A program made the translations under genes and the position numbers. The notes under the pieces were generated by a model that saw only the letters and a program-made list of their open reading frames with translations, searched no databases and was not told the DNA's origin. Positions 21,235 to 34,594 of a stretch of DNA of 64,000 bases are shown here, one piece after another (within the stretch, counting starts at the first letter, position 1; each line of letters opens with the position of its first letter). The stretch is from Planctomycetales bacterium 71-10. Its GTDB lineage: Bacteria > Planctomycetota > Planctomycetia > Isosphaerales > Isosphaeraceae. The DNA is taken from contig MKTT01000074.1 of assembly GCA_001898385.1 (NCBI GenBank), positions 92,685 through 156,684 on the forward strand, given 5' to 3'.

Positions 21235-22713
21235 ATGATGAGGATGCAGGGACGATCGCGGCGGGCCCGGCGGGCCGCCTGGGGCGTGGAGGCCCTGGAG
21301 GGGCGTCGGCTGATGACGGCCGGCCTCATGGCCCAGTTCGCGCCCGGGTGGGGGGACGCGGTCGACGTCCGCTTCGACCACTACACGACGGGCTTCCAGG
21401 AGTCGGCCGGCCGGGTCCCGATCACGCTCACCCGCGGGGGGGACCTGACGCTGGGCGCGACGGCCCGCGTCCGGACCTCGACGGTCGATGCCGTGGAGGG
21501 CTACGACTACGTCGGCCTCGACCAGCCCGTGGTGTTCGCGCCGGGCTCCGCGACGGCGACGTTCTACCTGACGATCCTGGACGACGCGATCTCCGAGCCC
21601 GAGACGAAGGCCCTGTACCTCCAGGTCTACGGGACGAGCGACGTGATCTCGTCCGAGACCGTCGCGTCGATGATGGTCCTGATCGGCGACGACGAGCCGG
21701 GGAGCGGGACGCCGCTGACGTTCCACGCCTTCGGCGACGCCGGGCTCTGGACGTACAACGACGTGGAGGGCTACCGCAAGATCAACGACGCCTCGCCGGA
21801 GGCGATCCATCCCGCGCCGAACCGCGGCGCGTACCTGGACTTCGGCAAGTCCGGCCTGTGGTACTGGGACGCGCTCACCGGCTACGAGAAGCTCAATAAC
21901 GCCGACCCGCAGGGGATCCTGACCTCGGACCAGGGCGATTCGCTGCTGATCGACTTCGGGGCCGGCGGGCTCTGGGCGTGGTCGCGGGCCGGCGGCTTCT
22001 CCTACATCACCGACGTCGACCCCGAGGCGATGGCGGGGACGGCCGAGCGCGGGCTCGTCGACTTCGGCCGCGCCGGGCTGTGGGCGTTCGACTTCAACGC
22101 CTCCGCGCTGTGGCCGTTCGGGGCGACGACGTGGACGAAGCTCGACGACCAGAGCCCCGAGGCGATCGCCGTCGCCGGCGGGACGTTCTACGCCGATTAC
22201 GGCGCCCGCGGGCTCTGGCGGGTGGGCACGAGCATCACCACCGCCTCGGAGTCGAACGGGGGCCAGGTCCAGTACAGGACCGTGATGGATCAGATCAACC
22301 CGGCCGACCCGGGGACCATCGCGTCGACCGCGGACGGCCTGTTCGTCGACTTCGGCGCCGCCGGCCTGTGGAACTTCGACGGCGCCTGGACCAAGGTCAA
22401 TGACGTCGCGCCTCGGGCCACCTGGGCCGCCGACGACGGCCTTTACCTGAACTACGGCGCCGCCGGCCTCTGGCGGTTGGCCGGCGGGACGTGGACGAAG
22501 CTCAACGACTCCGCCCCCGCGCGGGCGTCCTACGCCACGCCCGTCGTCGCGTACCAGACGCCGCAGGCCGCGTTCGACCTGGACTACGGCGACGCCGGCC
22601 TCTGGCGGTGGTCGACGTCGACCGGATGGAAGAAGCTCACCAACGCGAGGGCGACGGCGTTGGGGACGGCGAGGCTGGACACCGGGGTCGGCTACGGGAT
22701 CATCCCGGCCTGA
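21235..22713 (+). CDS. LEPR-XLL-type secreted protein: Calx-beta plus eight 'FGxxGLW' repeats (paralogue A, short form)
   Basis: N-terminus RRARRAAWGVEALEGRRLMTAG; Calx-beta-like VEGYDYV...FAPGSATATFYLTILDDAISEPE; repeats from FHAFGDAGLWTYNDVEGYRKIND to the C-terminus. Confidence 0.85.
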   Translation: MMRMQGRSRRARRAAWGVEALEGRRLMTAGLMAQFAPGWGDAVDVRFDHYTTGFQESAGRVPITLTRGGDLTLGATARVRTSTVDAVEGYDYVGLDQPVVFAPGSATATFYLTILDDAISEPETKALYLQVYGTSDVISSETVASMMVLIGDDEPGSGTPLTFHAFGDAGLWTYNDVEGYRKINDASPEAIHPAPNRGAYLDFGKSGLWYWDALTGYEKLNNADPQGILTSDQGDSLLIDFGAGGLWAWSRAGGFSYITDVDPEAMAGTAERGLVDFGRAGLWAFDFNASALWPFGATTWTKLDDQSPEAIAVAGGTFYADYGARGLWRVGTSITTASESNGGQVQYRTVMDQINPADPGTIASTADGLFVDFGAAGLWNFDGAWTKVNDVAPRATWAADDGLYLNYGAAGLWRLAGGTWTKLNDSAPARASYATPVVAYQTPQAAFDLDYGDAGLWRWSTSTGWKKLTNARATALGTARLDTGVGYGIIPA

Positions 22714-22828
22714 CGCCCCGTCCCGACGTCCTCGCGCGGGCGCCCGGCGCGGCGCCGGGCCGCCCGCCCCTCTCGCCAGCTTCGCCGGCCCCATCCGACG
22801 CCGAGACGGGGCCGGCCGCACACCTGGG

Positions 22829-31927: not shown

Positions 31928-32083
31928 TCGCGGCGGAAGCCGCGAACGCATTGATAATCAATCATTCAATCGAATCCATCGGAACGACGCACGCACCCCA
32001 GACTACGAAAACCTCGCGTCCGTGCGGCCCCGGCCGGCCATGATCGGCGCCGGGGCGAAGACGCCGAACCAGGGAGAGCAGCC

Positions 32084-34594
32084 GTGAAGCGGAAACCGAG
32101 TCGTTCGCGTCGGAAGCCGAGGTTCGGCCTGGGGCTGGATTCGCTCGAAGGGCGTCGGCTGCTCTCCTACGGGGCTCCCGGGCCGGTGTTCCAGGTGAAC
32201 CAGACGGTCGTGGGGGGGCAATCGGCCCCGAAGGCGGCCGTGAACGAGCGCGGCCAGGTGGCCGTGATCTGGGAGGACTTCGGCACGGACGGCTCGGGGT
32301 ACGGCGTGTATGCGCGACGGCTCGACTCCGCCGGCCAGGCGCTGGGGGCCGAGTTCCGGGTCAACACGGCGACCGAGGGGGACCAGACCGACCCGCGGGT
32401 CGCCGTGCGCTATTCCAGCTACCTGGAGGACGGCCTGATCGCCACCTGGCGCGACGGCGGCAAGCTCTACGCCCAGCGATACGACGCGCAAGGCGCGGCG
32501 GTCGGCGGGGCGATGGAGCTGGCGGGCTCGGCGGGGGTCGGGGCCGACTACGACCTGGTCGGCCTCCCGGGCGGCGGCTTCCTGATCGTCTCGGCCGGCG
32601 GCGTGCTCGGCTACGGGCCCGAGGGGGCGGCCGCCGGCTCGTCGACGCCGGGCGCGGGGCATGAGGGCTGGACGCCCCAGGCGCCGGCCGCCGGCCGCGC
32701 CGGGATCCTGTATTACGACCAGGCCGTGACGACCTGGGCCGAGACCCGCTCGCGCGAGGTCGAGGGGACGACGGTCTACGACGCGCGGATCTGGGCCCAG
32801 GCGCTGGATTCCCAGGGCGGCCTGTCCGGCCCCGAGGTGCTGATCGCCGAGATCCAGGGGGCCGCGACGCCCGAGGCGGTCGCCGACCTGGACCCGGTGG
32901 TGGTCCGGCCCCGGGGCTATTACGGCGAGCCGATCATCGCCTGGCGCCAGGCCGGGGCCGAGGGCTCGACGTTCCACGCCCGGAACCTGACGCAGGATTA
33001 CGACACGAACGACCTGGAGCCCGACGGCGACGCCTTCGAGCTGGCGACGTCGACGCCCGCCGACGCCGTCGCGCTGGCCTGGCTCGACGGCTCGTCGCTG
33101 GCGGCCTTCTTCATCGGCGAGGATCCGGCCGGGCCCGACGGCGGCTACTTCCAGATCTTCGGCGCGCGCGGCGGCGCGGCCCAGGGCGATCCCGTCCCGG
33201 CGCCCGACGTCGCGGCCGACTCGCTGGCGACCCTCGCCGTCGTCCCGACCGTGGGCGGCGACTTCTGGCTGGTCTGGGGCGACCCCCAGGTCGACCCGAC
33301 GGCGGGCGAGGTCCACGCCCAGCGCCAGTTCACGACCGACTCGGAATTCCACCTCGTCGGCGACGACCAGTACCTCAAGGAATCGGACGGCCGGGCGGTC
33401 CTGTTCGTCGTCCGCAGCGGCGACCTGTCGCAGCCGGCGAGCATCCGCTACGCCACCCATGACGAGGGATCGGCCCTCCCCGGGTACGACTACGCGCCGA
33501 CCTCCGGCGTGCTGACCTTCGCCCCCGGCCAGGCCGAGGGGACGATCACGATCACGATCGTCGACGACGCGGTCGCCGAGTCCTACGACTACTTCAGCGT
33601 CCAGTTCACGGACACCGTCGGAGCCGCCTACAACGGGTACTCGGCCTACGTCTCGATCGAGGACGACGAGCCGGCCTCCAACTACGCCCCCGTCTTCGTC
33701 GACTACGACGCCTACGGCCTCTGGACCTACAACCCCATCGAGGGCTGGGCGCAGCTCAGCACCTACGACCCCGAGGCCGTCGTCTCCACCTATCGTCGCG
33801 ACGCCTACATCGACTTCGGCGCCGGCGGCCTCTGGTACTGGCATCCCCAGTCCGGCTGGGCGAAGCTCAACGACGTCGACCCGCAGGCCGTGAAGGTCGA
33901 CCCGTCCGGCGACGGCGTCTACATCGACTTCGGCGCCGGCGGCCTCTGGCGCTGGACCAAGGGCGTCGGCTACCGCCAGATCAGCCCCTCGGATCCGCAG
34001 GACTTCCTTGCCGGCTACGACGGCCTGGCCATCGACTTCGGCCACGGCGGCCTCTGGAAGTGGTCCACGACCGGGACCTGGGCCAAGCTCAACGACGTCG
34101 ACCCCAAGGCCATGATCGGCGACCCCTCGGGCACGCTGTACATCGACTTCGGCGCCGGCGGCCTCTGGAGCCTGGACGAGGACGGGGTCTACGCGAAGAT
34201 CAGCGACTTCAGCCCGCGGACGATGAAGCTCGGATACGACTATACCGCCGACGATTACGAGGACGTCCTCTACCTGGACTTCGGCTCCGGCGGCTTCTGG
34301 AAGTGGGGCGGGATCTCCGGCTGGGCCAAGCTCAACGACCTCGCCCCCGAGTCGTTCGTCGACGACGGCTTCCACTCCCTGTTCATCGACTTCGGCCACG
34401 GCGGCCTCTGGAGCTGGAGCAAGGCCGACGGCTACCGGCAGCTCAACACCGTGAACCCCGAGCTGATCGCGTTCAGCGCGGTCGACGACGGCCTCTATAT
34501 CGACTTCGGCTCCGCCGGCTTCTGGCGCTGGACCAAAAACGGCGGCTACACCAAGATCAACGACGCCAACCCCACGGCGTTCTCCCTGGCCTGA
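32084..34594 (+). CDS. LEPR-XLL-type secreted protein (paralogue F, long form)
   Basis: GTG start, V/MKRKPSRSRRKPRFGLGLDSLEGRRLLSYGAPGP; YIDFGAGGLWYWHPQSGWAKLNDVDPQAV repeats. Confidence 0.85.
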   Translation: MKRKPSRSRRKPRFGLGLDSLEGRRLLSYGAPGPVFQVNQTVVGGQSAPKAAVNERGQVAVIWEDFGTDGSGYGVYARRLDSAGQALGAEFRVNTATEGDQTDPRVAVRYSSYLEDGLIATWRDGGKLYAQRYDAQGAAVGGAMELAGSAGVGADYDLVGLPGGGFLIVSAGGVLGYGPEGAAAGSSTPGAGHEGWTPQAPAAGRAGILYYDQAVTTWAETRSREVEGTTVYDARIWAQALDSQGGLSGPEVLIAEIQGAATPEAVADLDPVVVRPRGYYGEPIIAWRQAGAEGSTFHARNLTQDYDTNDLEPDGDAFELATSTPADAVALAWLDGSSLAAFFIGEDPAGPDGGYFQIFGARGGAAQGDPVPAPDVAADSLATLAVVPTVGGDFWLVWGDPQVDPTAGEVHAQRQFTTDSEFHLVGDDQYLKESDGRAVLFVVRSGDLSQPASIRYATHDEGSALPGYDYAPTSGVLTFAPGQAEGTITITIVDDAVAESYDYFSVQFTDTVGAAYNGYSAYVSIEDDEPASNYAPVFVDYDAYGLWTYNPIEGWAQLSTYDPEAVVSTYRRDAYIDFGAGGLWYWHPQSGWAKLNDVDPQAVKVDPSGDGVYIDFGAGGLWRWTKGVGYRQISPSDPQDFLAGYDGLAIDFGHGGLWKWSTTGTWAKLNDVDPKAMIGDPSGTLYIDFGAGGLWSLDEDGVYAKISDFSPRTMKLGYDYTADDYEDVLYLDFGSGGFWKWGGISGWAKLNDLAPESFVDDGFHSLFIDFGHGGLWSWSKADGYRQLNTVNPELIAFSAVDDGLYIDFGSAGFWRWTKNGGYTKINDANPTAFSLA
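33806..34168 (+). repeat. Intragenic 30-nt exact direct repeats in paralogue F
   Basis: tacatcgacttcggcgccggcggcctctgg is identical at 33806-33835, 33920-33949 and 34139-34168. Confidence 0.85.

Follow-up and report, generated by a model that had tools for sequence, protein, structure and literature searches.

In a soil planctomycete belonging to Paludisphaera, six tandem genes, designated A to F, each encode a C-terminal array of eight GLW repeat units that can be assigned with good confidence to a single closed eight-bladed beta-propeller. Taken separately, the propeller fold is close to certain on the predicted models, and the presence of eight blades in A-F is highly probable.

The genes occupy positions 21235-34594 on the forward strand of the window (the whole stretch of DNA analysed, 64,000 nucleotides) and are separated by gaps of 46-156 nt (Table 1). 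Calx-beta (PF03160) lies directly N-terminal to the ring in every case; it is detected in six of six proteins, scoring 31.6-68.7 bits where the cut-off is 27, and is the sole Pfam domain above cut-off in A-F. The N-terminal domain of approximately 400 residues in C has no Pfam match. The GTG start of E was chosen on its LEPLESRRLL motif. Between the six rings, pairwise identity is 31-46%.

Table 1. Genes, Calx-beta domains, and GLW rings of the A-F cluster (positions in the window).
Feature	Position	Strand	Description
Gene A	21235..22713	+	492 aa; LEALEGRRLM-type motif at the N-terminus, then Calx-beta and 8 GLW units
Calx-beta (PF03160) of A	21355..21639	+	Pfam, E 8.9e-8
A ring	21715..22710	+	8 units; insertion in A5, smaller one in A4
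Gene B	22829..24181	+	450 aa; Calx-beta and 8 GLW units
Calx-beta of B	22961..23269	+	Pfam, E 5.8e-19
B ring	23291..24178	+	8 units
Gene C	24260..26863	+	867 aa; N-terminal domain of ~400 aa, Calx-beta, 8 GLW units
Calx-beta of C	25565..25822	+	Pfam, E 1.9e-7
C ring	25925..26860	+	8 units
Gene D	26910..29426	+	838 aa; architecture as C
Calx-beta of D	28176..28496	+	Pfam, E 3.7e-9
D ring	28518..29423	+	8 units, unit 7 degenerate
Gene E	29522..31927	+	801 aa; architecture as C; GTG start inferred
Calx-beta of E	30716..30988	+	Pfam, E 2.5e-14
E ring	31052..31924	+	8 units, the last degenerate (6.7-10.9 bits)
Gene F	32084..34594	+	836 aa; GTG start; architecture as C
Calx-beta of F	33368..33667	+	Pfam, E 1.3e-15
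F ring	33689..34591	+	8 units; 32 strands in the AlphaFold2 model

The original prediction, that all six proteins carry exactly eight GLW repeats, was borne out by a profile search, which placed eight units of approximately 36 residues at the C-terminal end of each protein, and by a profile retrained across the genus, which returned eight units in six of six. With leave-one-protein-out profiles, eight units were found in each of B-F and nine pieces in A, where the insertion in unit A5 breaks that unit into two. The best score among 600 shuffled sequences was 7.0 bits, and nearly all real units scored 17-61 bits. E8 is the one weak unit, its 6.7-10.9 bits falling in the range of the shuffled maximum; it is counted because its position and spacing fit. 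Units A5, D7, and E8 had been called degenerate, and with the genus-retrained profile they are indeed the lowest-scoring units of their proteins. The extent given for the repeats was also exact: unit A1 starts at 21715, and the final codon of F is at 34591. The last unit lies at or near the C-terminus, with 17 residues after the final match in A, 5 in B, 9 in C, 3 in F, and 2 each in D and E. The repeats of A-F have no matching model in Pfam or NCBIfam. The Pfam models FG-GAP, FG-GAP_3, and NHL likewise gave no match in A-F (the FG-GAP models at E<=1), and PDB sequence searches with F and with the eight-unit and seven-unit alignments returned nothing significant.

The fold was predicted by AlphaFold2 from the F ring, the one array of A-F to be modelled, together with eleven aligned arrays. 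The model (pLDDT 92.2, pTM 0.86) contains exactly 32 strands, four per unit, formed by the LYVD, LWRW, GWxKLN, and AIAV segments. A seven-unit array of P. soli was modelled with similar scores (pLDDT 91.4, pTM 0.88) and 28 strands, such that consecutive four-stranded blades are found in both predicted models, 32 strands for eight units and 28 for seven. The C-terminal strand of the F ring (AFSL) is assigned as a paired strand although no unit comes after it, and its interior equivalent precedes the LYVD strand of the following unit. A paired terminal strand with no following unit points to closure onto unit 1. All matches listed by Foldseek against the PDB, for the eight-unit and the seven-unit model alike, are propellers. 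Among those listed for the eight-unit model, Tako8 and Ika8, which we take to be eight-bladed designs, match across the full query. For the seven-unit model they include the seven-bladed designs v31WRAP-T and nvWrap-T, the PLL5 lectin, and, as the top match, virginiamycin B lyase. The best TM-scores to solved propellers are moderate, about 0.5-0.7, and the full-array matches to Tako8/Ika8 and v31WRAP-T, which are designed sequences at about 10-12% identity, indicate likeness of fold only. Ring closure is thus strongly suggested by the strand assignment and the fold matches, and the closed eight-bladed propeller that had been proposed for these proteins gains support from the Foldseek propeller matches and from one modelled array. 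AlphaFold2 may be ambiguous on blade number (PMC9218822). In the proposed arrangement, each array would begin with the second strand of one blade and end with a first strand, so that the C-terminal strand of unit 8 would complete the blade of unit 1 and clasp the ring.

The family is present in all six Paludisphaera genomes, with 41 intact arrays in total. Of these, 26 have eight units and the remaining 15 have seven; the eight-counts of L021 and L082 each depend on one unit below 5 bits. Four further paralogues occur elsewhere in the genome that carries A-F, one with Calx-beta and eight units, the last of them weak (L021), and three with seven units each (L022, L023, and L024). An additional array, L069, has about six units, is broken by a frameshift and a stop codon, and is not among the 41 intact arrays. 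Across 39 further genomes of the order, the seven-unit model gave one marginal match and the eight-unit model none, and in a sample of the phylum matches were found in 2 of about 398 genomes. No relative was found among viral contigs with the seven-unit alignment. Searching the viral Foldseek library yielded, for the most part, generic WD40/RCC1 propellers.

Throughout the genus, the ring is always C-terminal, whatever the N-terminal part, which in arrays other than A-F may be a CAP, PPC, or Big_9 domain. The planctomycete-type N-terminal motif of these proteins, LEALEDRRL, is presumably a mark of exported proteins, from which we infer that A-F are secreted. The GLW repeat, for which Pfam has no model, forms the C-terminus of many Paludisphaera proteins predicted to be secreted and could account for some of the biology of the cell surface or matrix in this genus. 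It is proposed that the ring serves as a ligand-binding module borne on varied N-terminal modules of a secreted protein. In A-F, the ring would be the binding head, and Calx-beta would act as a rigid spacer or as a calcium-responsive joint. A close analogy is with the biofilm adhesins Bap1 and RbmC of Vibrio cholerae, which are secreted, modular, and eight-bladed, as A-F are read here (PMC10102183). Their propeller binds matrix exopolysaccharide and needs its Velcro strand (PMC10102183), and the blade phase proposed for A-F would also require a terminal clasp. The two systems differ in their flanking modules, which are beta-prisms in Bap1/RbmC and Calx-beta in A-F. By this analogy, A-F are most likely matrix or surface adhesins, and there is about an even chance that the ligand of the ring is an extracellular polysaccharide or glycan. 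The ring might instead bind a protein partner, such as a component of the organism's own cell surface, and so anchor the varied modules in front of it. Its constant C-terminal position behind Calx-beta, PPC, CAP, Big_9, and other parts is anchor-like, but neither a conserved partner gene nor an anchoring motif was found, and carbohydrates are the commoner, indeed typical, ligands of VCBS-like propellers (PMC9218822), leaving a protein ligand as the less probable of the two, though a possible one.

The origin of the GLW blade is indicated by relatives outside the genus. In Thiotrichaceae (L030 and L031) and in one distant planctomycete genome, G396 (L089), the repeat unit is 43 residues long and contains a DxDGNGxxD loop, and each array comprises seven such units by reading. 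The Pfam models FG-GAP and FG-GAP_3 both match L089 above cut-off; their matches to L030 are weaker. These FG-GAP-type relatives share the motif IDFGxxG[IL]WxxxNNxxWxxLxxxxPE with the GLW repeat, and propellers of the FG-GAP/VCBS type (PF01839, PF13517) have four strands per blade, as do the GLW rings. A calcium-loop profile built from the repeats of L030, L031, and G396 finds all 41 Paludisphaera rings with a median of 51 bits and a top score of 92, whereas periodic shuffles reach at most 5.6. Since the calcium-loop profile detects every ring, the GLW blade can be regarded as related to the FG-GAP blade but devoid of the calcium loop. In the consensus of the 36-residue GLW unit, a short turn stands in place of the calcium-binding DxDxDG-type loop, and the simplest direction of change would be a putative loss of the loop along the GLW lineage. 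Two proteins of Desulfobacterales (L032) also have no calcium loop and, by reading, contain eight units each. The eight units of A-F differ from the seven of the integrin-type FG-GAP propeller (PMC3192720). It could be argued that the ring is a propeller of the NHL or strictosidine-synthase-like (SSL) type, perhaps enzymatic in the manner of a lyase or lactonase, rather than a binding module derived from FG-GAP. Short SSL_N and NHL matches above the curated Pfam cut-off do occur in several seven-unit relatives and in L067/L085, and virginiamycin B lyase leads the Foldseek matches of the seven-unit ring. However, the Pfam matches cover 13-17 residues, A-F have none of them, and the closest full-length relatives beyond the genus match FG-GAP, making the NHL/SSL assignment unlikely.

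The constancy of eight units had been advanced as an argument for a closed ring. Six kindred paralogues are not independent, so that this part of the argument does not stand by itself; it is the 41 genus-wide arrays, with few changes on their tree, that give it weight. Eight as a fixed number likewise holds in A-F but not beyond them, given that three paralogues of the same genome and 12 arrays of sister species have seven. A universal eight for this repeat is rejected by the seven-unit paralogues within the same genome. In eight-unit arrays, units in the same register are more alike than units out of register (0.419 versus about 0.37), which indicates that the arrays descend as blocks. The ring tree has a total length of 25.9 substitutions per site and holds three changes between seven and eight, while each of 500 label shuffles required at least eight. 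Common descent alone would hold that the tandem duplicates A-F inherited eight units and that the number is under no structural constraint. The kinship of A-F, whose rings are 31-46% identical, and the clustering of rings in clades of like number, with just three changes over 41 arrays, accord with this account. Against it, intact genes show only 7 and 8 units despite the divergence summed over the tree, the lone array of about six units carries a frameshift and a stop, AlphaFold2 models back rings of either size, and VCBS-like propeller lineages elsewhere vary in blade number (PMC9218822). An unconstrained number is therefore improbable, and unit number appears to be fixed by ring closure. 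Under closure, any loss or gain of a unit would have to leave a closed ring, and intact genes would settle at seven or eight. Since the genus offers 41 natural rings in two sizes, changes between seven and eight, and one broken copy of six units, it allows the rules governing blade gain and ring closure to be tested. An open beta-solenoid, or a string of separate units with no ring, could be built from tandem repeats of 36 residues in which Gly and Trp are invariant and is compatible with the count alone, but it is very improbable given high-confidence propeller models with four strands per unit and a paired C-terminal strand, the propellers among the Foldseek matches listed, and counts confined to 7 and 8.

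Across the genus, unit number covaries with the domain upstream. Calx-beta is directly upstream of 24 of the 41 arrays, all 24 of which have eight units. The 17 arrays with no upstream Calx-beta comprise 15 with seven units and two with eight (L071 and L077), and the rings of these two nest in the Calx-beta clade of the ring tree. Three arrays, L067, L084, and L085, combine Calx-beta with eight units yet are placed among the seven-unit rings; their Calx-beta domains group with the C-F type, and their units 3-5 are nearly alike. It is doubtful, though worth considering, that the upstream module sets blade number, with eight blades behind Calx-beta and seven otherwise, and with more than one switch, including the blade duplication in L067/L084/L085. 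If this were true, ring size would have been altered by selection several times over, each time along with the domain architecture. The eighth blade of the L067/L084/L085 lineage was apparently a separate gain through internal duplication, in a part of the tree where branch support is partly low, which makes the number of independent gains tentative. Arrival of the first unit of eight-unit rings together with Calx-beta was tested in this lineage and rejected, as unit 1 of L067/L084/L085 is closer to seven-type units than to unit 1 of A-F. Together with the close resemblance of units 3-5, this seven-type unit 1 fits internal duplication better than it fits a unit travelling with Calx-beta.

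In a sister species, six eight-unit genes are retained in tandem (locus L063, G029:C2:4499000-4516500), and several of these are the counterparts of A, B, C, and F, in conserved order and with a ring identity of 49-63%. At locus L069 (L069:3500-4160), a Calx-beta/GLW gene contains only about six units and is interrupted by both a frameshift and an in-frame stop; it is a copy that is either in decay or misassembled. GLW-like units also occur in an unrelated phylum, as a Desulfobacterales MAG (locus L032) encodes two adjacent proteins, each with eight such units at the C-terminus and none with the calcium loop. 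One of these two proteins also has a NosD match.

Within the cluster, C, D, E, and F have in common an N-terminal domain of approximately 370-400 aa, with motifs such as VIWEDFGTDGSGYGVYARRLDSAGQALGAEFRVN. This domain has no match in Pfam and none by sequence in the PDB, and it may be a further propeller-like domain.

Location of the N-terminal domain in four cluster proteins
Protein	Window position
C	24260-25560
D	26910-28170
E	29522-30710
F	32084-33360

Immediately upstream of the cluster (window 18657-20854) are genes for an N6/N4 DNA methylase and for an activator of sigma-54 (Sigma54_activat). Downstream of it (window 34683-36735) are genes for a DUF4058 protein and for a peptidase of family S58. 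On the reverse strand, window 42301-43692 encodes one fused protein containing tetratricopeptide repeats and two matches to the RNA polymerase alpha C-terminal domain (RNA_pol_A_CTD), which is an unusual pairing.
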